64,000 nt of DNA, taken from positions 1-64,000 of the forward strand of contig NZ_JAAALE010000015.1 of NCBI RefSeq assembly GCF_009905735.1. The letters are read 5' to 3'. Source of the DNA: Porphyrobacter sp. SLTP. GTDB lineage: Bacteria; Pseudomonadota; Alphaproteobacteria; Sphingomonadales; Sphingomonadaceae. Each line of letters opens with the position of its first letter. Position 1 is the stretch's first letter. Below the pieces are notes generated by a model. The model was not told where the DNA came from, did not search any database, and worked only from the letters and a program-made list of their open reading frames with translations. A program made the position numbers and the translations under genes. Of the stretch, positions 49 through 48,886 are shown one piece after another.

Positions 49-875
49 CCCGCCAGTACGAACGCCACGACGGCTGGACCCCCGAACGCCAGCGCGGCTT
101 CATCGAGGCGCTGGCCGACACCGGCTCGGTCGAGGCAGCCTGCAAGGCGGTCGATATGAGCCAGGCCGGGGCCTACAACCTGCGCCGCCAGCCCGGCGCC
201 GAGAGCTTCCGCGCCGCATGGACCGCCGCGCTCGACCTCGGCATCGCCCGCGTCGAGGATGTCGTCATGGACCGCGCCCTCAACGGCGTGGAGGAGGACG
301 TCTTCTCCTACGGCAAGCACGTCGGCACCCGCCGCCGCTACAACGACCGGCTGCTGATGTTCATCCTGCGCAACCGCGCGCCCGAGCGTTTCGCGGTCGG
401 CGGCGGGCCGAAGGGCCTCAACGCGATCAGCCAGATGCAGCTCGACCGGCTCAAGAAGCAATGGATCAAGGAATACGAGGCCAGCCAGCCCAACGTCTCG
501 GCCGAGGAGGTTCGCCGCAGCATCGACCGCAAGATCGAGGACATCCGCCGCCGCTTCCAGCACGAAGCCGAGGACCGCTGGGCCGCCCTCAGCGAGGAAA
601 CCCGCGCCGCCTGGGCCCACTTCCTGGCCCTGCGCGACCGCGACCTCGACGCGATGAACGCCGACGCCAAGACCCGCGAGCTGCTCGATGCGCCGTGGCA
701 CGCAGAGGCCGATCGCTTTGATCCGCCGGAGCGCAAACGCCTCCCCCCGCCGAAGCACCGGGCGGAGGAGGAGGCAAACCGTCACCCGCCCGAGGGCTGG
801 TCCTACGGCAAGCCCAAGCCCGCCCCGCCGCCGCGGACGGAGTGGACAATCAAGGATGAGAGTTTTGATCCGTAG
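9..875 (+). CDS. Conserved hypothetical protein with terminase-small-subunit-like N-terminal helix-turn-helix
   Basis: A protein of 288 residues if the GTG at 9 is used. That start lies inside a perfect hairpin, and the frame is open to the left edge, so the true start may be outside the window. Residues about 20-70 (GWTPERQRGFIEALADTGSV followed by AACKAVDMSQAGAYNLRR) resemble the helix-turn-helix of phage terminase small subunits and of small chromosomal proteins common in sphingomonads. The middle (about 140-230) is charged and probably helical; the C-terminus is rich in Pro, Lys and Glu. No other phage gene is nearby, so a chromosomal DNA-binding role is as likely as a phage remnant. Function unknown. 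Confidence 0.75.
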   Translation: MKGGSSLPPFTPVPRQYERHDGWTPERQRGFIEALADTGSVEAACKAVDMSQAGAYNLRRQPGAESFRAAWTAALDLGIARVEDVVMDRALNGVEEDVFSYGKHVGTRRRYNDRLLMFILRNRAPERFAVGGGPKGLNAISQMQLDRLKKQWIKEYEASQPNVSAEEVRRSIDRKIEDIRRRFQHEAEDRWAALSEETRAAWAHFLALRDRDLDAMNADAKTRELLDAPWHAEADRFDPPERKRLPPPKHRAEEEANRHPPEGWSYGKPKPAPPPRTEWTIKDESFDP

Positions 876-893
876 GCGGTGAAGGCGCGCAAG

Positions 894-940
894 TCCTCCC
901 CTCAAGGGGAGGGGGACCATCCGCAGGATGGTGGAGGGGC
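894..940 (+). repeat. Dispersed structured repeat, copy 1
   Basis: Two adjacent short hairpins: one around CCCCTCAAGGGG and one of the form ACCATCC-GCA-GGATGGT, ending in GGAGGGGC. A second copy lies in opposite orientation at 3309-3353, with a changed but still pairing second stem. This is an intergenic repeat, not coding. The rest of 876-1134 holds only short GC-rich repeats and the ccdAB control region. Confidence 0.7.
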
Positions 941-1035
941 GGGCGAGGTTATCTCTGCGCGGCAGAGTCCAAGCTGCAAGCTGGTGCGCGTCAGCGCATC
1001 ACCGCCCTCGGCCGGCGGGCGGCGTTAACCGACCC

Positions 1036-1050
1036 GTTCGGAAGCGAAGC
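1036..1050 (+). repeat. 15-bp inverted repeat flanking the ccdAB island, left copy
   Basis: The 15-mer GTTCGGAAGCGAAGC occurs here and, exactly inverted, at 2930-2944. The two copies bracket the ccdAB, HEPN-like and winged-helix genes. They may be boundary repeats of an inserted segment or members of a genome-wide dispersed family. Confidence 0.6.
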
Positions 1051-1102
1051 TGGCCGAAGGCCACCTCCTGGCCGCGGCTTTGCCGGGGCTGCTTTCACCT
1101 TG

Positions 1103-1121
1103 ATGCATACACCCTATGCAT
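1103..1121. promoter_or_regulatory. Candidate ccdAB operator
   Basis: ATGCATA and TATGCAT form a perfect 7-bp inverted repeat with a 5-base spacer, 14 bases upstream of the ccdA ATG in an AT-rich stretch. CcdA-family antitoxins bind palindromes over their own promoter, so this is a plausible autoregulatory site. The assignment is inferred from position and symmetry. Confidence 0.5.
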
Positions 1122-1134
1122 ATACATTAGTGAC

Positions 1135-1395
1135 ATGAACAGCCACACACCTTCACGCCTCAAGGCCCCTAGCGAGCCGCGCAAGCGCACAACCATGACC
1201 ATCCGACCAGATTACCTCGCCGATGCGAAAAGGCTTGGCATCACGGTTTCCGAAGCCGCCGAACGCGGCCTACGCGATGCGATCCGCGAGGCTGAAGCGG
1301 CGCGTTGGCTTGAAGAAAACGGAGATGCGGTCGCGGCGGCCAATGACTGGGTTGAGGCCAACGGCCTGCCACTCGCGGATCATCGCCTGTTCTGA
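1135..1395 (+). CDS. ccdA: CcdA-family antitoxin
   Basis: An 86-residue protein with a basic N-terminal region (about residues 15-55, TTMTIRPDYLADAKRLGI) of the ribbon-helix-helix type. The C-terminal half (EAEAARWLEENGDAVAAAN) has the look of the CcdA segment that wraps and neutralises CcdB. CcdA binds DNA as a dimer and represses the operon. The ATG at 1135 follows the AT-rich palindrome. The frame is open further upstream, but that part runs through repeats and is not protein-like. The stop overlaps the ccdB start (TGATG), the usual coupling of this module. Confidence 0.9.
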   Translation: MNSHTPSRLKAPSEPRKRTTMTIRPDYLADAKRLGITVSEAAERGLRDAIREAEAARWLEENGDAVAAANDWVEANGLPLADHRLF

Positions 1396-1694
1396 TGGCG
1401 CGTTTCGATGTTTACGCGTTGAAGCGCGGCGGGGCGCTAGTGGTCGATTGTCAGGCGGATTTGCTGGCGGGGCTAAAAACCCGCTTGGTTGCGCCGCTGA
1501 TTGCGGAGAGCCAAGCGCCCAAACCTGCGCGCCGACTCAATCCCGTGTTTGAGATTGGCGGAGAGCGTTATGTGTTGATGACGCAGCTTCTCTCGGCGGT
1601 TGAAGTGAGCGAATTGGGGGCGAAGGTCGTTGCGCTCGAGAAGGATGGCGATACAGTTCTGAATGCGTTGGATTTTCTGCTTACGGGGGTTTGA
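1395..1694 (+). CDS. ccdB: CcdB-family toxin
   Basis: A 99-residue cytoplasmic toxin of the CcdB fold, whose F-plasmid relative poisons DNA gyrase subunit A. It starts MARFDVYALKRGGALVVDCQ, in line with the family (MxxFDVY..., then a DCQADLL-type strand). RYVLMTQLLSAVEV in the middle is the conserved central strand and loop. It overlaps ccdA by one base. The C-terminus reads NALDFLLTGV, so the Trp-Gly-Ile end needed for gyrase poisoning by F-plasmid CcdB is replaced by Thr-Gly-Val. Chromosomal CcdB proteins often differ there, and activity cannot be read from sequence. Base composition is intermediate between the GC-rich surroundings and the AT-rich next gene. Confidence 0.88.
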   Translation: MARFDVYALKRGGALVVDCQADLLAGLKTRLVAPLIAESQAPKPARRLNPVFEIGGERYVLMTQLLSAVEVSELGAKVVALEKDGDTVLNALDFLLTGV

Positions 1695-1726
1695 ACGGCT
1701 CGCAATTTCGTATAACGTTGAACCAC

Positions 1727-2569
1727 ATGATTGAGTTAAACGCACCGTCATTTTTGGGCGCAGCCACTTCGCTTGCGCGGATCCATCAAATTTTTTCTGG
1801 GCTTTCGGCTGCCAATGACGAGAAGTTGATTCCCGAAAGCATTTCTCTGATTTTACCTGCAGTCAGATTGTTTGAGGGTGAAACCCAAGCCATCGGAGCA
1901 AGGTTGGCAAGTGTCTCAGCGCATCGCTTTATGGCCTCGTTAGAGCAAAGCCCTTGCGACGTGACCGTCGGAAAAGCGACAATTGCGCTCCACGATATAG
2001 AAAGCCGGTTCGCTGATTATCTTAGCGAAATTAAGCTGTTCACATTATCTTCCCAAGAGTCGCCCTTCATGTCACCAGCAGATGATCTGCTTCAAAATTC
2101 GGGCTTCTCAATACTGTTCCCTAGCGCATCCTTTGAAGTAGAAGAGGCTGCAAAATGCATTGCATTTGGGCGTTATACAGCCTCGGTTTTTCATGCGATG
2201 AGGATGCTTGAGATAGGTATCCGGGCACTGTCAAAGCGACTTGGAATCCCTGATCCCACGAAGCCATCGGAAAAAAACTGGGGGAAGATTCTAACTGCAA
2301 TCAAGGCACAAATCGATCAACTCTGGCCTACCAATTCGAGACTACCTGGGTCTGAAGGAGTAGCGTTCGAAGGTCTTTATGCGCACCTAGATGCAGTTCG
2401 TAATCCGTGGCGCAATTCTACTATGCATGTGGAAACGATTTACGCACCCCACGAGGCACTACACATTATCAGGTGTGCTGCATTCTTTATGACAGCGTTA
2501 TCGAAGCTAACCGACGAAGATGGGACTCCACCTCACGCAACACCTTCCCTACAGCTGGCAGGACCATGA
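1727..2569 (+). CDS. HEPN-like protein of unknown function
   Basis: A 280-residue protein from ATG 1727. A TTG at 1691 overlapping the ccdB stop is an alternative start that would add 12 residues. The C-terminal half holds a helix (FHAMRMLEIGIRALSKRLG) followed by WRNSTMH, which gives the HEPN signature Arg-x4-His at about R229/H234. HEPN proteins are commonly RNases in toxin-antitoxin and phage-defence systems, although some are inactive. The gene is visibly richer in A and T than its neighbours, which points to recent transfer. It follows ccdAB directly and could be co-transcribed. The N-terminal half (1-130) is not recognised. Confidence 0.7.
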   Translation: MIELNAPSFLGAATSLARIHQIFSGLSAANDEKLIPESISLILPAVRLFEGETQAIGARLASVSAHRFMASLEQSPCDVTVGKATIALHDIESRFADYLSEIKLFTLSSQESPFMSPADDLLQNSGFSILFPSASFEVEEAAKCIAFGRYTASVFHAMRMLEIGIRALSKRLGIPDPTKPSEKNWGKILTAIKAQIDQLWPTNSRLPGSEGVAFEGLYAHLDAVRNPWRNSTMHVETIYAPHEALHIIRCAAFFMTALSKLTDEDGTPPHATPSLQLAGP

Positions 2570-2607
2570 TGTGCTATGAAGCCCACATTATAGCTATGAA
2601 TCCACCA

Positions 2608-2850
2608 TCAAAATGCCTTGAAAAGTTTTTTACTTCCCACAGTTTCACGCTTCACCAAACCGCGCGCTATAAGTCCGCCCAAGAGTGAATATGTGAGATA
2701 GTTCTTTTGCCGACCTGCGAAGTCAGACTCAAGGCCAAGGTCACGAGCAATCTCGCTGTTGATCGCGCCCTCAGGTCGCTCCCTCAAATACTCAAGGATC
2801 GCATCCTCAAGTTCGGCGCGACCCTTGGCTGCTTTCTCTCTTGGCTTCAT
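2608..2850 (-). CDS. Small winged-helix DNA-binding protein
   Basis: An 80-residue protein. The start at 2850 is fixed by AAAAGGAG eight bases before the ATG; the frame stays open for 24 more codons upstream, but without such a site. Residues about 10-75 (LEDAILEYLRERPEG, INSEIARDLGLES, YLTYSLLGGLIARGLVKRE) read as a complete winged helix: recognition helix, then a helix leading to the wing. Small proteins like this often sit in accessory loci, sometimes beside restriction-modification genes, but no such partner remains here. The gene converges on the HEPN-like gene with 38 bases between the stops. Confidence 0.7.
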   Translation of the reverse strand: MKPREKAAKGRAELEDAILEYLRERPEGAINSEIARDLGLESDFAGRQKNYLTYSLLGGLIARGLVKRETVGSKKLFKAF

Positions 2851-2929
2851 AGCTTTAGCTCCTTTTGGAAGCACCAAAGCAGAAAAGTAAGCCTCGGCAA
2901 AGTCGCGTGCATGAAATAGCATTTGGCAA

Positions 2930-2944
2930 GCTTCGCTTCCGAAC
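2930..2944 (-). repeat. 15-bp inverted repeat flanking the ccdAB island, right copy
   Basis: Exact reverse complement of 1036-1050. It lies in a GC-rich segment (2930-3060) of short repeated words that is unlike the AT-richer island to its left. Confidence 0.6.
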
Positions 2945-3113
2945 AGGCTCCGCTTCGCGCACCCGCCCCCCAGAATGCTCGCCCTTCCTTCTTGCCGCCA
3001 TTCGCTGCGCGAACCCCAGCGCTAGGCGCAGGGCCTTGTTCTTAACCATCCCCCGCCACCTCTCAGCAACCTTTCACCTCCACCTTCAGCACAACGCATT
3101 GAAAGGGTTAGCG

Positions 3114-3278
3114 ATGTTCACACGGTTGCGGGACGACGACGCGGGGGCGACCGCCATTGAATATGGGCTCATCGTCGCGCTCATCGCGATTGCGGCGCTT
3201 ATCGCGTTTCAGTCGCTCGGGCTGACGCTGTCGGATGTGTTCGATACGATCAGGACGGCGATGGGGAGCACTTTGTAG
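3114..3278 (+). CDS. Flp/Fap-type pilin subunit
   Basis: A 54-residue type IVb pilin. A short charged leader (MFTRLRDDDAG) precedes ATAIEYGLI, the conserved processing and hydrophobic segment, where prepilin peptidase cuts after Gly and the Glu-Tyr pair follows. Residues about 12-45 form one hydrophobic helix that would anchor in the inner membrane and then pack in the pilus. A GAAAGGG site lies a few bases before the ATG. No tad/cpa assembly genes are near, so this is an orphan pilin that would depend on a tad locus elsewhere. Confidence 0.9.
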   Translation: MFTRLRDDDAGATAIEYGLIVALIAIAALIAFQSLGLTLSDVFDTIRTAMGSTL

Positions 3279-3308
3279 GGGTGGTTGTTCGGGGGGTCGG
3301 CTTAGCTT

Positions 3309-3353
3309 GCCCCTCCACCACCTTCGGTGGTCCCCCTCCCCTTGAGGGGAGGA
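3309..3353 (-). repeat. Dispersed structured repeat, copy 2
   Basis: Inverted relative of 894-940: CCCCTTGAGGGG hairpin plus a CCACC-TTCG-GGTGG-type stem. Compared with copy 1 the second stem has changed on both sides while keeping pairing. It lies between the pilin gene and the end of lepA. Confidence 0.7.
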
Positions 3354-3363
3354 TTGAAGGTTA

Positions 3364-3382
3364 GCCGCGGCAAAGCCGCGGC
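3364..3382. repeat. GC-rich hairpin GCCGCGGC-AAA-GCCGCGGC
   Basis: A perfect 8-bp stem with an AAA loop, about 107 bases downstream of the lepA stop (minus strand). No T-run follows on either strand, so a rho-independent terminator is not supported. A related word (GGCCGCGGCTTTGCCG) occurs near 1070, so this is probably another small dispersed element. Confidence 0.5.
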
Positions 3383-3488
3383 CGTGACGTCGAACGCGCT
3401 GGCCTACGGCCACCCGCCGGCCGGAGTTACAGCCTCTCGCTTCTAGCTTGTCGATTGCTGTGCAATCGCCTGCGCTAGGCGCGGGGCC

Positions 3489-5306
3489 TCACTCCTCACC
3501 CATCCGCAGCGCAGCAATGAAAGCTTCCTGAGGAATAGAGACGTTGCCGTATTCTCTCATTCTGGCCTTCCCCTTCTTCTGCTTGTCCAGCAGCTTCTTC
3601 TTCCGGGAAATATCCCCGCCGTAACACTTGGCGGTCACGTCCTTGCGCATCGCCGCGATGGTTTCGCGGGCGATCACCTTGCCGCCGATCGCGGCCTGGA
3701 TCGGGATCTTGAACAGGTGGCGGGGGATCAGGTCCTTGAGGCGCTCGCACATGCCGCGGCCGCGTTCTTCGGCGACGTGGCGGTGGACGATCAGGCTCAG
3801 CGCGTCGACCGGCTCGGCGTTGACGAGGATGTTCATCTTCACAAGGTCGCCCTCGCGCGTGCCGATCTGCTCGTAATCGAAGCTGGCATAGCCGCGGCTG
3901 ATCGACTTCAACCGGTCGTAGAAATCGAACACCACTTCGTTGAGCGGCAGTTCATAGGTCACCTGCGCACGGCCGCCCACATAGGTGAGCTCGGTCTGGA
4001 TGCCGCGGCGGTCCTGGCACAGTTTCAGGATCGCGCCGAGGTACTCGTCAGGCGTGTAGATCACCGCCTTGATCCACGGCTCCTCGATCACCTCGATCCG
4101 GTTGGTATCGGGCCAATCGGCGGGGTTGTGGATGTCGATCACCTTGGCGTCCTCGTATTTCGAGTGGCCGAGGTGGATGCGGTACACCACGGAGGGCGCG
4201 GTGGTGATGAGGTCGAGGTCGTATTCGCGGCTGAGGCGTTCCTGGATGATCTCCAGATGGAGCAGGCCGAGGAAGCCGCAGCGGAAGCCGAAACCGAGCG
4301 CGGCGGAGCTTTCCATCTCGAAGGAGAAGGAGGCGTCATTGAGGCGCAGCTTGGCGATGCTTTCGCGCAGCTTCTCGAAGTCGGCGGCGTCGACCGGGAA
4401 CAGGCCGCAGAAGACGACCGGCTGGACTTCCTTGTAGCCCGGCAGCGGGGTGTCGGAGCCGTTCTTGACCGTGGTGATGGTGTCACCGACGCGGGCCTGC
4501 TCGACCTCCTTGATCTGGGCGGTGATGAAGCCGATTTCGCCGGGGCCGAGTTCGGCCAGGTCGGTGCGCTTGGGGGTGAAGCAGCCGACGCGGTCGACAA
4601 GGTGCTGGGTTCCGCCCTGCATGAAGCGGATGTTGAGCCCCTTGGTGAGCTTGCCGTCGATCACACGCACGAGGATGACGACGCCGAGATAGGGGTCGTA
4701 CCACGAATCCACGAGGCTGGCGGTGAGCGGCGCGTCGATCTTGCCCTTGGGCGCGGGGATGCGCTGGACGACGGCTTCGAGCACGTCCTCGATCCCGATG
4801 CCGGACTTGGCGCTGGTCATGACCGCGTTGGACGCGTCGAGGCCGATGATCTCCTCGATCTCGGCGCGGACCTTCTCGGGTTCGGCGGCGGGGAGGTCGA
4901 TCTTGTTGATGACGGGGACGATTTCGTGATCGTGCTCGATGGATTGGTAGACGTTGGCGAGGGTTTGGGCCTCGACCCCCTGCGCGGCGTCGACGACCAG
5001 CAGCGCGCCCTCGCAGGCGGCGAGGCTGCGGGAAACCTCGTAGGCGAAGTCGACGTGGCCGGGGGTGTCCATCAGGTTGAGCTGATAGGTCTCGCCATCC
5101 TTGGCGGTGTAGTTGAGGCGCACGGTCTGCGCCTTGATGGTGATGCCGCGCTCTTTCTCAATGTCCATGTTATCAAGGACTTGCTCGGACATCTCACGCG
5201 CGGTGAGGCCTCCGGTGAACTGGATCAGCCGGTCAGCGAGGGTCGACTTGCCATGGTCGATATGCGCGATGATGGAAAAGTTGCGGATTTTGGAGAGGTC
5301 AGTCAT
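3489..5306 (-). CDS. lepA: Elongation factor 4 (LepA), back-translocating GTPase
   Basis: A 605-residue translational GTPase of the usual LepA length. The P-loop AHIDHGKST is at about residues 14-22, followed by DTPGH and NKID in the first 135 residues. The domain order is EF-G-like without domain IV, ending in the LepA-specific C-terminal domain ([26 protein letters not shown] is typical of that end). LepA acts on stalled or mis-translocated ribosomes and in ribosome assembly. It stands alone here: the usual partner lepB is absent and the next gene upstream encodes a c-di-GMP protein. Confidence 0.97.
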
Positions 5307-5361: not shown

Positions 5362-7539
5362 CTAGGCTGAAGGTGCGGCATAGCCGAACTTGGGGATCGC
5401 GCCGCCCTGATCCATGCCAAGGAACCGGCCCGGTGCCAGCGCCGCGAGCGGGGTTCCGGCAGCGGCGAGGGCATAGGGCGAAACGCGGTTGCGGGTACAC
5501 AGCCCGCCCGACCCGTCCTCGATCAGCGATTGTTCGAACTCGAGCCCCTGCACATCGCCATTGGCACGGGTCACCGTCGCCACCGCCAGCTGTCCGCCGC
5601 CCAGGTCGACCACGAATTGCGTGCCCTTGGGCACGTCGGCCAGTCCCTGGATCAGCGCGCCCGACTTCGAGAGGTTGCGCAGCGTCACCTCATAGGCATA
5701 GTCATCATGGATCACCTGGATCTTGCGGAACACCGTCCGGCGCCGCGCACGACGGGTGCGGTCGGTGCCGGGTTCGATCTTCCACGTGCCGCCAGCCATC
5801 TCTTCCGCCAGCGAATCTTCGTCGAGCGGCTCGCTGAAAATCGGGCCCTCAAGGTAGCGCACCCCGCCGGCGGTCAAAGCTGCCAAGAGGTCCGCGCTTT
5901 CGATGCCGCTCGCGATGGTGTCCATCTGGAGCGCACCGGCCAGCGCCACAATCGCGCGCACCAAACCAAGCTCGCGGCTGTCTTGACGTTCGGCTTCGGC
6001 AATCAGCTTCTGGTCGATCTTGATGCTGTCAAACGGCGCGCGGCGCAGATAGGCGAGCGAGGAATAGCCCGAGCCGAACTCGTCAAGCGTCAGGCGGACG
6101 CCTAGCTTGAACAGTACGGCGAGCGTGCGGTCGACCACGGCGGCATCGCCGAAGAACACGGCTTCGCTGATTTCGAGCTCAAGCCGCGCGGGGTTTAGTC
6201 CGGCGCTGTCGATCGCCTCGCCGATCTGCTCGACGAAGTTATCGGCGAGGAACAGCGCGACCGGCACATTGACCGCCACCCGGACAGTATCGGGCCAGAG
6301 GGCCGCGCGCTGGCACGCTGCGGCAATAGCCCACCGCCCGACATCGGGGAGCAAGGCGGAACCTTCCACGATCTGGGCGAACTCTTCCTCGTCGATCACA
6401 CCGCGCTCGGCATGGGTCCAGCACACATGCGCTTCAAGTGCGCAGACCGATCCGGCGGCGGCTTCGACGATGGGTTCGAAGCGCAGGAACAGCTGCTCTT
6501 CGCGCAGAGCGGTTCCCAGGTCCTGTTCCAGACGGCGGCGGAAAATCGTCTCGTTCTCAAGCTCACCGGAGAAGAACCGATATTGCCCGCGCCCGCCATT
6601 CTTGGAGGCATAAAGCGCAAGGTCGGCAGCGCGCACGATTTCCTCGCGGCTCACGCCGTCATGCGGAGCAATCGCAATGCCGACCGACGCACCGATGACG
6701 CAGCGGCCATCTTCAAGGCTGTAAGGCTGGCGCAGCATGGTGATGATCTTCATCGCCAGATCGCCAAGCACCCCGCGGTCGTCGATATCGGGCAGCATCA
6801 CCTGGAACTCGTCGCCGCCGAGCCGTCCGATCTCGCATTCGCGGTCGATCGCACGGGTCAGCCGTGCGGCGACCTGCTTGAGCAATTCATCCCCTGCGGC
6901 ATGACCGAGCGTGTCGTTGACATGCTTGAACCGGTCGAGGTCGATCATCATCACTGCGCAGTTGCGCCGCGCCGCCTTGAACGCGGTCAGCGTGCTTTCG
7001 ATTTGGTGCGCCATGCGGTGGCGATTGCTGAGGCCCGTGAGCGAATCGTAACGGGCGAGCCGCGCGGTTTCTTCCTCGCGGTGATATTCTTCGGTGATGT
7101 CGACGCCGGTGCCACGGAAACCTGCAAAGCGTCCCTCGCCGGTGGTCACCGGTTGGCCGGAAAGGCGCAGTACCGCGCCTTCGGGCCGCCGTGCCGCGTG
7201 GACTGCGATGCCGCCAAAGGCCTTGTGCGCGCCGAGCATGAGCGGGAGCGACTTGCCGCGCTGCTCGCGGTCGGCGGCTGTGAAGATGGTGCCGAGGGGT
7301 TGGCCCAGCAACTCACCAAGAGGGATATCAAGTCGGGCGGCGATAGCGGCAGACAGATAGGTCAGATGGCCATTCGCATCGCTCGCCCAGAACCAGCCGA
7401 GACCCGATTGCTCAAGCTCATCGAGCATGGCGAGACGCTCGCCATCAGACAGCGCCGAAGCGGCAGCCGGGGCGGCAAGACTGCGCGCACTGCGGGGAGC
7501 CGCGGCGTTGCGGGACGACAGGAGACCCTTCAGGGACAT
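5362..7539 (-). CDS. PAS-GGDEF-degenerate EAL-PilZ protein (likely diguanylate cyclase)
   Basis: 725 residues from ATG 7539, with GGAGG twelve bases upstream; an in-frame GTG at 7644 would add 35 residues. Domains: PAS about 38-150, GGDEF about 160-320 with intact GGDEF at 241-245, EAL-like about 340-580, PilZ about 592-680 (RRTVFRK, then NLSKSGALI). The EAL domain is damaged: EAL reads EAH (369-371), the second Asp of DDFG is Glu (DEFG, 486-489), the Glu of AEGVE is Ser (IASGIE), and the Gln of the QG motif is Glu. These residues hold metal and water, so phosphodiesterase activity is unlikely. The RxxD inhibition site before GGDEF is missing (DREC). No membrane segment. Sister of the next gene. 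Confidence 0.9.
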   Translation of the reverse strand: MSLKGLLSSRNAAAPRSARSLAAPAAASALSDGERLAMLDELEQSGLGWFWASDANGHLTYLSAAIAARLDIPLGELLGQPLGTIFTAADREQRGKSLPLMLGAHKAFGGIAVHAARRPEGAVLRLSGQPVTTGEGRFAGFRGTGVDITEEYHREEETARLARYDSLTGLSNRHRMAHQIESTLTAFKAARRNCAVMMIDLDRFKHVNDTLGHAAGDELLKQVAARLTRAIDRECEIGRLGGDEFQVMLPDIDDRGVLGDLAMKIITMLRQPYSLEDGRCVIGASVGIAIAPHDGVSREEIVRAADLALYASKNGGRGQYRFFSGELENETIFRRRLEQDLGTALREEQLFLRFEPIVEAAAGSVCALEAHVCWTHAERGVIDEEEFAQIVEGSALLPDVGRWAIAAACQRAALWPDTVRVAVNVPVALFLADNFVEQIGEAIDSAGLNPARLELEISEAVFFGDAAVVDRTLAVLFKLGVRLTLDEFGSGYSSLAYLRRAPFDSIKIDQKLIAEAERQDSRELGLVRAIVALAGALQMDTIASGIESADLLAALTAGGVRYLEGPIFSEPLDEDSLAEEMAGGTWKIEPGTDRTRRARRRTVFRKIQVIHDDYAYEVTLRNLSKSGALIQGLADVPKGTQFVVDLGGGQLAVATVTRANGDVQGLEFEQSLIEDGSGGLCTRNRVSPYALAAAGTPLAALAPGRFLGMDQGGAIPKFGYAAPSA

Positions 7540-7698
7540 CGTCTCGGTAAACCTCCAGACCTCAATCCGGTAGCAGCCCGCACGGCCGCCCCCGTTGTTC
7601 GCCAAGGAGTAAAGCCCGATGGTTATTTTTCCGCTAACAGCCACCCTTGCGAGAGATGGCTAAGAGGCCGCTAACTTATCCGCGCTGCGCCGCGATGA

Positions 7699-10437
7699 TT
7701 ACCAGCCGCCAGCGCCAGCGCCTTGGCTGCGTTGCCCCTTCAGCACCGAGTAGGAACCATCGGCCCGGCGGCGCAGGGGCTCGTGGAATTCGACTCCGAC
7801 GCGATTCTCGCGCGACCAGCGCACCTGCGCAGTCACCGATTTGTCGTCCGAAAATTCGATCCGCATCGGACTTCCTGCGGGCATGTTCCACAGGCCTTCG
7901 ATCATCGCGCCGCTTTCGGAAATGTTGCGCAGCGTGGCATTGAGGCGGTTGTTGTTGTGGATCACGGTCACCTTGCGCAGCAGGTTCTGGCGCGGCACGC
8001 GCGCGCATTGCGGGCCATCAGCCTCGGCTACCAGATTGCCCGAAACCAGTGCGGTCGCCTCTGCGGCATTCATTGGCTTGAAGTAGATGTAGCCCTGAAT
8101 GTGGCTGCACCCGAGCAGGCGCACCAGTTCCAGCTCGTCGAGCGTTTCAACACCTTCGGCCGTGGTGTCCATATGCAGCGCTTCGGCCAGGGACGTGATC
8201 GAGGCGATGATCGCGCCGTTGCGGCTGCCTTCCTCGGTGGCGCCCTGCACAAAGCTGCGGTCGATCTTGATCTTGTCGAACGGCGCCTTCTTGAGATAGC
8301 CCAGCGATGAGTAACCGGTCCCGAAATCGTCGAGCGCAAGACGCACTCCGACCCGCTTCAGCGCCTTGAACATGGCATCGGTCCCGGCGCTGTCGTTGAG
8401 GAACACGCTTTCGGTGATTTCCAGCTCCAACCGCGATGGGGCGACCCCAGCATGGGCCAGCGCATTGGCGACGATGGTCGGCAGTTCGGGATTGGCGAAT
8501 TGCAGTGCCGAAACATTGACAGCACAGCGGATCGAGCGGGGCCAGCGGGCGAGATCGGCACAGGCCGTGCGCAGCGCCCATTGGCCCATCCGGTCGATCA
8601 GGCCGGCATCTTCGGCGATGGGGACGAATTTCGAAGGGCTGAGCCAGCCGCGCTTGGGGTGGTTCCAGCGCATCAACGCTTCGAAACCGACGATCTTTTC
8701 GTCGGCGGCGAAGACCACGGGTTGGTAGTGAAGCTCCAGCTCGCCCTTGGCGATCGCCTCGCGCAGGTCCTGTTCCAGCTCGGCGCGTTCTTCTGCGGCG
8801 GCGTGGAGGTCTTCGGCGTAGAAGCGATACACGCCGCGGCCTGCGTCCTTGGCGGCATAAAGCGCAAGGTCGACATTGCGGATCAGCGCATCGCTGGTCG
8901 AGCCATGCTCGGGAGCGAGCGCGATCCCGACCGATGCACCGATGACCACGCTCTGGCCGGTGATCGAATAGGGCTGCGACAGCGAGTTGATGATTTCCTG
9001 TGCCATGTGCCCGAGTGTTTTGCGGTCCTGGTGGCCGGGGACGATCACCTGGAATTCATCACCGCCAAGACGCCCGCAGCGCCCTGCCCCGCCTATGGCG
9101 CGTTCGAGCCGTTGAGCCACCTGCTTGAGCAACGCATCGCCAGCGGGGTGGCCTAGCGTATCGTTGACATGTTTGAAGCGATCGAGATCGAGCATCAGCA
9201 CCGCGCAGGCCCGCTCACGCCCGCTGGGGGCGGCCAGGATTTGCTCGAGCGCCTGACTCATCTGCACGCGGTTGGCGAGGCCGGTGAGGGAATCGTAGTG
9301 AGCGAGGCGCGAGACCTGCTGCTCGCTGCGGCGCTTTTCGGTCAGATCGGTGCCGTGGCCGCGGAAGCCGCAGAAGTTCTTGTAGCTGTCATACACCGGG
9401 CGCCCGGCAAGCGCCCACCAGCGTTCGTCGCCGGTGGTGGCGGCGCGCACCTCAACATCGTGGAAAGCGGAACGGGCCGAAAGGTGGAAAGCGAGCGTGC
9501 GCTCGGCATCGGCTGCGCTCTGGGTGGGGTCGACGATCTCGCTCAGCGGACGGCCGACAATTTCATCGCTGGACTTGCCGAGCGCCATGGCCGCCTTGGG
9601 CGAGATATAGGTGATCAACCCGCGCCGGTCGGTTTCCCAGAACCAGCCTTGCCCGGTCTCCTCGAAACTGCGCAGGATATCTTCGGCGCGCGCTGCGACC
9701 CGCTCGCGTGCTTCGCGGGCGAGGCGGCGCTGTTCTGCCGCTTTCCATTCGAGCCGCGCGATCAGCGACAGGGTTATGGCTGCAGCAATCAGGGCGGCAT
9801 AGGTCAAAAGACCTGGCATGAGCACAGCAAAGCCCGCCCAGCTGGCAATCTTGGCGCAGAACAGCGAGATAATGCGCATGTCGAACAGCGCGGCGGCGGC
9901 CGCGTTGACGCAGATCAGCGTTGCGATGGCCCATTGCCACGGCAGGCCCTCGTTCACCCAGCCGGCCAAGGCATAACCCGCCAGCGCCATCGGCAGGACG
10001 ATGCCCGCCACCACCACCAATGCCCGCGTGGCGAATGACCTATCGCCGCGACGTTCCGTGGCGGCGAACAGCGAGCCACATGCAAACAGCGCCGCCGAAG
10101 CCAACGCTGCGCCGACCGTATGGGTCGACGGCAGGCCCTGAAAGGCCACCGCCGAAACGGCATAGGCGGCCAGCAGGAACAGGGTCATGCCCCCGGCTTC
10201 GCGCGGCAAAAGGAAGCCTTGCTCGCTGGCAGGCTCGTCGATCGCGTGCTTCAGCCCCCCGATCTTTTCGGTCTGGAGCCGCTCAATCCCGCGACGCTCA
10301 CCGCGAGCGCGCAGATCGGCACCGTCAATCTCGGCTGTCGCCTTGGCCTTGGCTCTTGCCACCGAACGCAAATCACGATCCCCGCCAACGGGGCGGGGAT
10401 CAAATGTTGCGAATTTTCGGATCGGATCCCCAGCCAT
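7699..10437 (-). CDS. Membrane PAS-GGDEF-EAL-PilZ c-di-GMP enzyme
   Basis: A 912-residue protein with about five membrane helices between residues 83 and 230, then PAS about 250-365, GGDEF about 380-545 (GGDEF at 458-462) and EAL about 555-800. The EAL domain has all hallmark residues: EAL at 586-588, NVS, ELEITE, DDFGTGYSSL, AEGVET and QGY. A C-terminal PilZ domain follows (about 830-900, with NISESGAMI). Both synthesis and breakdown of c-di-GMP are possible; the RxxD product-inhibition site is not visible. It shares domain order and much sequence with the gene 160 bases downstream, so the pair arose by tandem duplication. The first 80 residues are poorly conserved in character, so a later start is possible. 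Confidence 0.92.
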   Translation of the reverse strand: MAGDPIRKFATFDPRPVGGDRDLRSVARAKAKATAEIDGADLRARGERRGIERLQTEKIGGLKHAIDEPASEQGFLLPREAGGMTLFLLAAYAVSAVAFQGLPSTHTVGAALASAALFACGSLFAATERRGDRSFATRALVVVAGIVLPMALAGYALAGWVNEGLPWQWAIATLICVNAAAAALFDMRIISLFCAKIASWAGFAVLMPGLLTYAALIAAAITLSLIARLEWKAAEQRRLAREARERVAARAEDILRSFEETGQGWFWETDRRGLITYISPKAAMALGKSSDEIVGRPLSEIVDPTQSAADAERTLAFHLSARSAFHDVEVRAATTGDERWWALAGRPVYDSYKNFCGFRGHGTDLTEKRRSEQQVSRLAHYDSLTGLANRVQMSQALEQILAAPSGRERACAVLMLDLDRFKHVNDTLGHPAGDALLKQVAQRLERAIGGAGRCGRLGGDEFQVIVPGHQDRKTLGHMAQEIINSLSQPYSITGQSVVIGASVGIALAPEHGSTSDALIRNVDLALYAAKDAGRGVYRFYAEDLHAAAEERAELEQDLREAIAKGELELHYQPVVFAADEKIVGFEALMRWNHPKRGWLSPSKFVPIAEDAGLIDRMGQWALRTACADLARWPRSIRCAVNVSALQFANPELPTIVANALAHAGVAPSRLELEITESVFLNDSAGTDAMFKALKRVGVRLALDDFGTGYSSLGYLKKAPFDKIKIDRSFVQGATEEGSRNGAIIASITSLAEALHMDTTAEGVETLDELELVRLLGCSHIQGYIYFKPMNAAEATALVSGNLVAEADGPQCARVPRQNLLRKVTVIHNNNRLNATLRNISESGAMIEGLWNMPAGSPMRIEFSDDKSVTAQVRWSRENRVGVEFHEPLRRRADGSYSVLKGQRSQGAGAGGW

Positions 10438-47023: not shown

Positions 47024-47836
47024 TCAGCCCCCGCAACCGCCGCAGCCACCGCCGCCGCAGCCGCCATCGCTGCTGCCGTCGGCACCGCCGCCGTCGCCAT
47101 TCTTCTGGCGCAGGGCGTGAACCGGCTCCCACGGGGTGCCGACCAGAACGCTGGTGCCGAACAATGCCACCGCCATCGCCGCCTCGTCAGGCCGGGGAGC
47201 GCGAGCGAAGCGGCCGTTGCTGACGCGCATTTGCTGCACAGTCGCCATGCCGGCCGCAGTGCGCGGATCACAGGTCAGGAAGCGGATCACCGCTAGTGCG
47301 ACGGTCACGCCCAGCAGCACAACCAGAAACCCCGTTGGCTCGTCCAGCGCGCTCCCGGCCCGCTGGCGATAGAGGCCCAGCATGAGCAGCGCGCCAAAGG
47401 GCGCCACCGATAACAGGCGCAAGCGGTTGTGCTCCTCGGGGCGCAGCAGCAGGCCTGCGCGGCGCAGGCGGGCCGCGACCCGATCGGCATGGATATGGAT
47501 TGCGCGGCGTGCCTCGGCGAGCGTCACGGGGGCATCAATGGCCAGCAAGGCCTTGCCGCCCGGGCTGACGGGCAGATCGCGTGCAGCGACGTGAAGCTTG
47601 CCCTTCTCGGCCGGAACCAGCGCGCCGCGCACGTAGAGATCGGCCAGAAGCGAATCGGCCATGCGCTGGCGGCCACCTACGAGCAATGCGATGCTTTCAA
47701 GATCATCGGTCTCGCCCTGCCGCCCCGGCTCGCGCAGATGCACCGGCAGCCACCATGCAGCGAAGGTCGCAAGACCAAGCAACATCGTGTAAAACAGCAG
47801 GAAATCGCTGCCCGTCCAGGACGAGAACAGCTGCAT
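47024..47836 (-). CDS. TIGR04222-type membrane protein with Gly/Cys tail
   Basis: A 270-residue protein. It has a membrane helix near the N-terminus (FLLFYTMLLGLATFAAWWLP), a soluble helical central part (LLVGGRQRMADSLLADLYVRGALV), two more helices around residues 145-190, and a C-terminal tail of Gly, Asp and Cys ending GGCGGGGCGGCGG, with Cys at about 260, 265 and 268. This layout matches the uncharacterised TIGR04222 group. The tail may bind metal or be modified; neither is shown. Its ATG overlaps the stop of the GRDP-like gene (TAATG). Confidence 0.8.
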   Translation of the reverse strand: MQLFSSWTGSDFLLFYTMLLGLATFAAWWLPVHLREPGRQGETDDLESIALLVGGRQRMADSLLADLYVRGALVPAEKGKLHVAARDLPVSPGGKALLAIDAPVTLAEARRAIHIHADRVAARLRRAGLLLRPEEHNRLRLLSVAPFGALLMLGLYRQRAGSALDEPTGFLVVLLGVTVALAVIRFLTCDPRTAAGMATVQQMRVSNGRFARAPRPDEAAMAVALFGTSVLVGTPWEPVHALRQKNGDGGGADGSSDGGCGGGGCGGCGG

Positions 47837-48381
47837 TACATCATCCTTCCCGCGATGAACCCTGCCAGAAAGACAATCAGGCCCAGCGCCAGAGCGACCC
47901 GGCGTTTGAGGACAATATCATCGAACAAGTTAACGCGAATACCTTTGGGATCGACGGAGAACCGCCTGCTGGCGGCCGGCCAGATGTCGGCAGGCGGCGG
48001 CGCGCCGAAGGCGGCCTCGTAGGCGGCGAGCGTATCGGCATATTGGCGGTAGAACCGCGTCCGCTCGATTTCGCCGCCCTGCGTGGGCCCGTGGTGCAAG
48101 GGGGACGCCAGCACGACGGGGCAGAACTGCTCCCAATAGTCGCGGCTGTAGGTGAGGTGGAGGTGCCAGGCCTGATCCACCGCGTCAGACGGCGTGACCT
48201 CGTGCCCGGCGGTCATCGCGAGATAGCAGAAGCGCTTGTACTCATCGATCACGCGTTGGGCGTATGGCTCGCTCCAACGGTTTTCGCGGGCAAGCCGGGC
48301 GGCGAAAGTAAGCGATGCGTCCGCTGGGCCGATCCGGTGGTCGGCGATACGCTGCCAGAGGGCGTCGTCAGGCGGGCTCAC
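47836..48381 (-). CDS. Glycine-rich-domain (GRDP-like) protein
   Basis: A 181-residue protein. Residues about 35-115 (YAQRVIDEYKRFCYLAMTAG, then VDQAWHLHLTYSRDYWEQFC) match the conserved block of the GRDP family, in which the HLH-containing segment follows VDxxWH. One membrane helix lies at the C-terminus (VALALGLIVFLAGFIAG), so it is a tail-anchored protein. Function in bacteria unknown. Coupled to the TIGR04222-type gene by overlap, and 4 bases after rimM. Confidence 0.8.
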   Translation of the reverse strand: MSPPDDALWQRIADHRIGPADASLTFAARLARENRWSEPYAQRVIDEYKRFCYLAMTAGHEVTPSDAVDQAWHLHLTYSRDYWEQFCPVVLASPLHHGPTQGGEIERTRFYRQYADTLAAYEAAFGAPPPADIWPAASRRFSVDPKGIRVNLFDDIVLKRRVALALGLIVFLAGFIAGRMM

Positions 48382-48385
48382 GCCG

Positions 48386-48886
48386 TCAATCTTCGGCGAA
48401 AGCGGCTCCGATCACAAGCCTTGCTTGATCCCACTCGATCACAGCGGTGGGAATCATCGGCACCATGAAGGTCTTCGGACCCTTTTCGGGCACCGGGGCG
48501 CGGGTGATTTCAATGATGTCGGTCGCGCCGAAGTTCTCGACCGCAAGTACGGTGCCGACGCTCTCTCCGGTGTCGGTGACGACCGGCAGCCCGAGCAGAT
48601 CGGCGTGGTAGAACTCGCCCTCGGCCAAGGGCGGCAAGGCATCGCGGGGGACGGTCAGCGCCGTGCCGCGCAGTTTTTCCGCATCCCCGCGGGAGGTGCT
48701 TTCGGCCAGCCGCGCAATCGCGCCGCCTTTCCCGTCATCCCGCACCTTGATCAGGGTAAGCGCACCGTCATTGAAGCTCTTGTGGGTCGAGAGCGTCTGG
48801 GCACCCTCCCCGAACAGCTTCAGACGCACCTCGCCCGCCACCCCATGCGCGCCGATGATGGCGGCGAGGGTGACGGGCTTGGTCAT
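48386..48886 (-). CDS. rimM: 16S rRNA processing protein RimM
   Basis: A 166-residue assembly factor for the head of the 30S subunit; it binds S19 and 16S rRNA. VTLAAIIGAHGVAGEVRLKLF is the family start, GEFYHADLLGLPVVT marks the junction to the PRC-barrel domain, and the end has MVPMIPTAVIEWD. It begins 6 bases after rpsP. Confidence 0.96.
   Translation of the reverse strand: MTKPVTLAAIIGAHGVAGEVRLKLFGEGAQTLSTHKSFNDGALTLIKVRDDGKGGAIARLAESTSRGDAEKLRGTALTVPRDALPPLAEGEFYHADLLGLPVVTDTGESVGTVLAVENFGATDIIEITRAPVPEKGPKTFMVPMIPTAVIEWDQARLVIGAAFAED

Follow-up and report, generated by a model that had tools for sequence, protein, structure and literature searches.

A GRDP-like protein and a Gly/Cys-tailed TIGR04222 membrane protein form a bacterial gene pair: a candidate tail-maturing partnership

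We know of no bacterial function for the GRDP-like family, whose domain is known from plants and giant viruses, or for the TIGR04222 family. In a 2025 study, TIGR04222 proteins are membrane proteins whose tails contain Cys, and subsets of these tails, encoded adjacent to MNIO genes, have been proposed as MNIO substrates (Antoine et al. 2025, PMC12452194). According to the sections of that paper drawn on here, MNIO is absent in a third of TIGR04222 genomes. A TIGR04222 peptide is also mentioned in a Pseudonocardia bacteriocin-type cluster, in the portion of PMC5183585 used here. In plants, the PF07173/DUF1399 protein AtGRDP2 carries a Gly region in its C-terminal part in which Cys residues are scattered, with the consensus [CG]GGGCGG[GC], as given in the relevant part of PMC4299439.

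We analyzed a 64,000-nt stretch of Porphyrobacter sp. SLTP (contig NZ_JAAALE010000015.1), hereafter the window, in which a gene pair at 47024-48381 joins these two families. Its features are:

47836..48381, minus strand: gene A, an ORF with a GTG start encoding a GRDP-like protein of 181 aa
47024..47836, minus strand: gene B, encoding a TIGR04222-domain membrane protein of 270 aa (NCBIfam match and AlphaFold)
47834..47838, minus strand: TAATG overlap, stop of A and start of B
48386..48886, minus strand: rimM, directly upstream of A
47842..47904, minus strand: C-terminal membrane helix of A, residues 160-180 (AlphaFold and hydropathy scan)
48085..48177, minus strand: conserved motif of A, residues 69-99, D-x2-W-H...Y...C...L-H-H-x-P (alignment)
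47027..47098, minus strand: Gly/Cys-rich tail of B, residues 247-270, predicted disordered

The minus-strand ORF coordinates bear out the TAATG overlap that a sequence-only reading of this DNA had described, with one base common to both genes. Compared with the MNIO-linked proteins covered in the cited parts of PMC12452194, B shares the domain family, the membrane helices and a Gly/Ser-rich, Cys-bearing C-terminus, and in both cases the tail is proposed as the target of a modifying enzyme. Unlike them, it comes from a genome without MNIO, and its partner is a GRDP-like protein, adjacent or, in other genomes, fused. The pair had been put forward as an undescribed membrane system, which holds in part: TIGR04222 proteins with Cys tails were already on record in that paper, but its main text contains neither the word GRDP nor DUF1399. 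Among the open-licence papers listed in our searches, none connects a GRDP-like protein of bacteria with TIGR04222 or with a Cys tail.

AlphaFold models A as an all-helical domain followed by a C-terminal membrane helix (mean pLDDT 88.5). The hydropathy scan flags a single strong hydrophobic segment at the C-terminal end (residues 162-180), coinciding with the modeled helix at 160-180 and preceded by a net charge of +2, which fits the earlier suggestion that A is tail-anchored. Within the motif, D69, W72, H73, Y82, C87, H96, H97 and P99 are invariant in 47 aligned sequences (homologue alignments of A held 44-47 sequences), and the pattern D-x2-W-H/R...Y/W...C...HH-x-P is kept in 44 of 48 diverse relatives.

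The GRDP label given to A earlier fails by Pfam and stands by fold and through intermediate relatives. PF07173 does not match A itself at E≤1 or E≤10 and has no match in genome G000. At E≤1 it matched eight places in 18 genomes, six inside A matches and two weak ones (G127, G080) outside; among those inside, the match in G057 was above the cut-off and those in G399 (twice), G306, G295 and G320 were below. The top BFVD fold match of A is a Harvfovirus protein named glycine-rich domain-containing protein-like (probability 1.00, E 8.3e-4, TM 0.51/0.64), a feature that A shares with PF07173/DUF1399. Because the fold points to a viral GRDP-like protein and the Pfam model failed, we call A GRDP-like kin and stop short of formally assigning it to PF07173. 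A differs from plant GRDP proteins in falling below the Pfam model and in that a distinct membrane protein bears the Cys tail; plant GRDP proteins, in the source portions used, carry an RNP motif. Scans with Pfam, NCBIfam, PHROGs and PADLOC found no function for A, and PADLOC found none for B. A had no PDB match by sequence, a PDB fold search with A and B returned nothing at E≤0.001, and a second PDB fold comparison of A reached Z of at most 2.3.

B matches NCBIfam TIGR04222 over the whole model with 125 bits (cut-off 43, E 3.5e-36). Its AlphaFold model has a pLDDT of 90.7, dropping below 50 in most of residues 248-270. This tail ends in ...SSDGGCGGGGCGGCGG and holds Cys 260, 265 and 268, exactly the three positions that had been given as approximate. 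The last 12 residues include CGGCG in 79 of 80 B homologues; the exception, L076, seems to have a frameshift in this part. Across 43 aligned B proteins with 32-76% identity to the window protein (the window plus 42 of 80 loci, without L076), Cys 265 and Cys 268 do not vary. Since the CGGCG codons vary, with 25 different 15-base strings in 79 genes and all four Gly codons in use, the tail is conserved as protein and not just as DNA. B tails hold 1 to 5 Cys per last 45 residues (three in 51 of 80). Tails with at least two Cys and at least 40% Gly+Ser occur in 1 of 793 other ORFs of the same 80 loci, and the Gly/Cys tail of B is more than chance.

The two genes are tightly linked in the order. 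Among its 118 genomes, TIGR04222 is above the cut-off in five, and A is adjacent in all five; one further genome, G065, has an A match at E<1e-40 without TIGR04222. The unit is patchy, as the same-genus genomes G012 and G091 have neither gene. A contig scan gave 517 A relatives, and in the best 80 of these, a selection that favors the closest kin, B directly follows A in 80 of 80 fetched loci.

We also examined 299 Pseudomonadota genomes, in which all A-profile matches were read. The A profile matches 15 genomes (17 places), and TIGR04222 is above the cut-off in 13. Six genomes have both, as neighbors in three and as one ORF in three. These single-ORF fusions of a GRDP-like domain, TIGR04222 and a Cys tail (L132, L133 and L134, from G267, G377 and G256) recur on two cyanobacterial plasmids, L152 of Gloeothece and L153 of Planktothrix, and all five exceed the TIGR04222 cut-off. 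The window B protein had no match among plasmids; the fused plasmid forms were found through A. TIGR04222 matches below the cut-off, in six genomes of the order, four of the 299 and five of a further search, are left uncounted.

The proposed check on co-occurrence thus gave a divided answer. A is present in five of five TIGR04222 genomes of the order, but outside it 7 of 13 genomes have TIGR04222 above the cut-off without an A match, and 9 of 15 have A without TIGR04222 above the cut-off. Where TIGR04222 stands without A, a radical SAM gene directly follows it in G173 and G250, the tails are Cys-free in G299 and G297, and in G165, G216 and G254 the contig breaks off within the gene or shortly behind it. 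Variable, Cys-free tails had been named in advance as a finding that would speak against the system; within the pair the core is constant (CGGCG in 79 of 80), but the two Cys-free tails do occur outside the order. The claim that A and B are partners is strongly supported by the five genomes of the order, the 80 adjacent loci and the five natural fusions. Gene order, co-occurrence and fusion show A and B to be one functional/genetic unit.

MNIO as the missing enzyme is disfavored for the window genome: PF05114 has 0 matches there, at a completeness estimate of 100%. SPASM radical SAM (TIGR04085) was likewise not found in this genome. MNIO occurs anywhere in the genome in 16 of 38 distinct pair-bearing genomes (G423 equals G068 and is counted once), versus 66 of 118 genomes of the order. 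By tblastn none of 192 loci, among them the 80 pair loci, contained it, with two sound queries out of four; the other two ORFs were antisense, and the sound two recovered MNIO-positive loci. On these counts MNIO does not travel with the A-B pair, and pair-bearers show no enrichment.

These data bear directly on the idea that the B tail is an ordinary MNIO substrate whose enzyme is encoded elsewhere, with A a bystander or chaperone. The sections of PMC12452194 cited here do treat MNIO-adjacent TIGR04222 proteins as putative substrates, and 16 of 38 pair-bearing genomes have MNIO somewhere. However, 22 of the 38, the window genome included, are without an MNIO match, the two sound queries found none in the pair loci, and the order as a whole (66 of 118) shows no enrichment in pair-bearers. 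We consider this explanation very improbable.

A radical SAM gene directly follows the TIGR04222 gene in L146 and L147, resembling radical SAM/SPASM maturase arrangements of a kind not found in the window genome. The SPASM part is above the cut-off in L147 only, and the best NCBIfam model for both is TIGR04082 (SbtM), below cut-off; a literature search for SbtM gave nothing relevant among the matches listed. At these loci (L146 5120-7099, L147 5009-7186) the TIGR04222 gene has a CGGCGG tail and precedes the radical SAM gene. Separately, L145 (6375-7229) encodes a TIGR04222 protein without a Cys tail, about 1 kb from what by eye is a PQQ biosynthesis-like cluster.

The slot beside a TIGR04222 tail is taken by MNIO in published loci, by a radical SAM enzyme in L146 and L147, or by a GRDP-like domain, so we read A as the partner of the tail. 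Specifically, we propose that the GRDP-like domain is a dedicated partner of the Gly/Cys tail that matures or charges it at the membrane, a proposal whose chances we judge to be even. The GRDP-like domain of A would probably sit at the cytoplasmic membrane face, while the membrane domain of B would anchor the disordered tail. Given direct contact in a common compartment, the conserved D-W-H...C...HH site of the domain may be where the tail binds, and the bound tail would then be matured or charged, either by aided Cys modification or by metal loading. A would in this way take the slot held by MNIO or radical SAM enzymes in other TIGR04222 loci. The physiological purpose might involve metals or thiols at the membrane, which is a guess.

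Several results count against the partner proposal. The conserved motif Cys is replaced by Thr or Ser in two relatives (L163 and L166), a motif His by Arg in L139b, and the pattern fails in L156 and L164. Co-evolution between A and B shows no excess over the rimM-trmD control: the A-B partial correlation is 0.23 given rimM and trmD, and that of rimM-trmD is 0.44 given A and B. In addition, no evident enzyme neighbor accompanies the window pair, whose neighbors by eye are rimM and a nitrilase-like gene.

Membrane topology bears on whether domain and tail could meet. Six relatives (L007, L135, L136, L138, L139a and L154) combine a GRDP-like domain, two membrane helices and their own Cys tail, and in all six the net charge after the second helix is +4 to +7. 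By the positive-inside rule, domain and tail in these two-helix forms would be cytoplasmic. For B, two segments of the window protein stand out in the hydropathy scan, against as many as four in homologues, and AlphaFold gives three long helices (9-34, 133-163, 169-187) plus shorter ones, with low confidence at 248-270. Three crossings would place the tail inside and a fourth would place it outside. GRDP-linked tails may be cytoplasmic, unlike the TIGR04222 tail that the cited sections of PMC12452194 predict to be periplasmic, and that prediction counts against a common compartment.

GRDP-like proteins carry Cys tails also where TIGR04222 is missing. Among 12 A-type proteins read from nine TIGR04222-less genomes, at least two Cys fall in the last 45 residues in 10 and at least three Cys follow the conserved motif in 11; L139b has no such tail Cys and adjoins a tailed copy, and a second weak A match in L137 (3712-4206) was left out of the count. 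From these 10-11 of 12 proteins, it seems to be a Cys tail, more than TIGR04222 itself, that the GRDP-like domain is linked to.

Plasmid and phage searches, for which the records fetched were 9 of 12, 3 new of 11, 3 new of 42, 2 of 2 and 9 of 21, extended the kin of A to Cyanobacteriota, Deinococcota, Actinomycetota, Bacillota, Pseudomonadota, a Klebsiella phage and a 595-kb uncultured phage, which places the GRDP-like domain in phages as well as in bacteria. We assembled a partly hand-picked set of 43 GRDP-like proteins outside the pair, which with five pair members makes 48, all matching the A profile at E≤2.8e-8. Two candidate relatives were discarded by eye, L188 as XdhC-like and L010 as a false match to a TonB-type receptor.

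In this partly hand-picked set, the last 45 residues hold at least two Cys in 33 of 43 proteins and at least three in 27 of 43, the latter versus 46 of 793 other ORFs of the 80 loci. At least three Cys follow the motif in 35 of 43, a looser measure that counts other domains in fused proteins. Tails with at least two Cys and at least 40% Gly+Ser are found in 17 of 43, against the single such ORF in 793, a rough comparison because the ORF background contains spurious frames. A separate, unpicked sample of the class covered 289 genomes; 13 had matches and yielded 11 new proteins, of which by eye five have at least two tail Cys, four have one near the end and two have none. The link between GRDP-like domain and Cys tail is weaker in this unpicked sample, which counts against the partner proposal.

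The tails themselves are diverse. In L140, two genes have many (Y/F)CAGPH units after the domain, YCAR-like and WCSLEA-like repeats occur in L171 and L176, and His- and Cys-rich GRDP tails are found in Paenibacillus L166 and the 595-kb phage L177. The two L140 genes form an adjacent GRDP-like pair with (Y/F)CAGPH arrays at 6272-8638. On the reverse strand of L186 (628-1785), a GRDP-like gene with ALCVPSKE-type repeats is followed by what by eye is a cysteine peptidase-like gene. L177 (2605-3609) and the alphaproteobacterial L185 (552-2037) each have a tailed GRDP-like gene after a small Cys-rich gene, YkgJ-like by eye, and in Klebsiella phage 05F01 (L169, 3884-4744) the GRDP-like protein has a hydrophobic segment at its N-terminal end and a tail of (SSC)n type.

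The peptide can also be detached. Plasmids of Halomonas (L163) and Pseudomonas (L165, L173) carry an ORF of 42-44 aa whose product ends in GGGHCQGGGSW or GGGGHCQGGGGW, then a GRDP-like gene that has no tail, then a gene for a membrane protein of roughly 440 aa; only in Halomonas did the last of these show a MatE match, weak and below cut-off. The three genes likely form a peptide system. They span L163 3710-5691, L165 3643-5631 and L173 2503-4595, the tiny ORF ending in GGGHCQGGG(S/G)W.

Some neighborhoods contain genes of peptide-modification type. On an E. coli plasmid (L161), genes for an ABC transporter and a JmjC protein come after a GRDP-like gene with a Cys tail, a cassette that looks like peptide modification plus export. 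This plasmid is pHUSEC41-3, a small mobilizable plasmid with the cassette at 391-3592 and the tail VCGCSGKGCGAGCSC; 25 E. coli records match. A TauD-type protein lies near the GRDP-like gene in L160, annotation places a methyltransferase and a TauD-type gene nearby in L172 and a radical SAM gene nearby in L167, and for an L170 neighbor an ATP-grasp ribosomal peptide maturase model scores best, with E 4.4e-33 but under the curated cut-off. Many GRDP-like genes, however, have no modification-enzyme neighbor recognizable by eye, a point against the partner proposal.

It could instead be that the tail is structural or anchoring, its Cys cross-linked or acylated, and that A only assembles or stabilizes B. 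A predicted disordered, Gly/Ser-rich tail with Cys at the very end would suit such a role. Yet detached peptides, Cys repeats such as YCAGPH in L140 and peptide-modification-type neighbors would all go unexplained, and we regard a structural tail as unlikely.

Extending the partner proposal, the GRDP-like domain, as DUF1399 kin, might be a new module for handling peptides, with Cys-rich Gly/Ser peptides as its targets in cis or in trans, a generalization we put forward only tentatively. The module could be an unrecognized peptide-modifying enzyme fused to its substrate or a folded leader domain that serves modifying enzymes of several kinds, both of which we regard as conjecture. The window pair would then possibly be the membrane form of such a module, with TIGR04222 as substrate carrier, though we lean against asserting this. 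Borosins, in which a peptide N-methyltransferase is fused to its own core peptide and which exist in split forms too, offer a parallel: an N-terminal domain and a C-terminal peptide are encoded in one chain or in two genes. In contrast to borosins, no search marks the GRDP-like domain as a methyltransferase.

A further explanation dispenses with modification: the His/Cys/Asp site of A and the Cys tail of B would form a putative membrane metal-handling device for copper, zinc or iron, the tail acting as a flexible chelator that takes metal from the GRDP-like domain. The conserved D, H, C and HH of A, the conserved Cys of B and the His/Cys-rich GRDP tails of Paenibacillus L166 and the 595-kb phage L177 agree with such a device, as does the copper binding of bufferins, related Cys-rich MNIO products, reported in the cited parts of PMC12452194. 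The genomic context speaks against it, as the conserved arrangement ffh-rpsP-rimM-trmD-rplS includes no conspicuous metal gene. The usual context of the pair is ffh-rpsP-rimM-[A-B]-(nitrilase-like)-trmD-rplS; at least one of these six context genes is present in 75 of 80 pair loci, rimM and trmD together in 70 of 80 and the nitrilase-like gene in 35 of 80. The remaining five loci (L079, L083, L094, L097 and L099) lack all six, and the A-B pair is still intact. We view a metal device as a possibility on the doubtful side.

Adjacency, fusion and detached peptides tie the GRDP-like domain to Cys tails, turning the functions of both families into one testable question. The association may account for part of the TIGR04222 genes without MNIO. 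It may also bear on plant GRDP proteins, which likewise have a Gly/Cys segment: if the kinship holds, the segment of AtGRDP2, as described in the cited portion of its source, would carry the association beyond bacteria.
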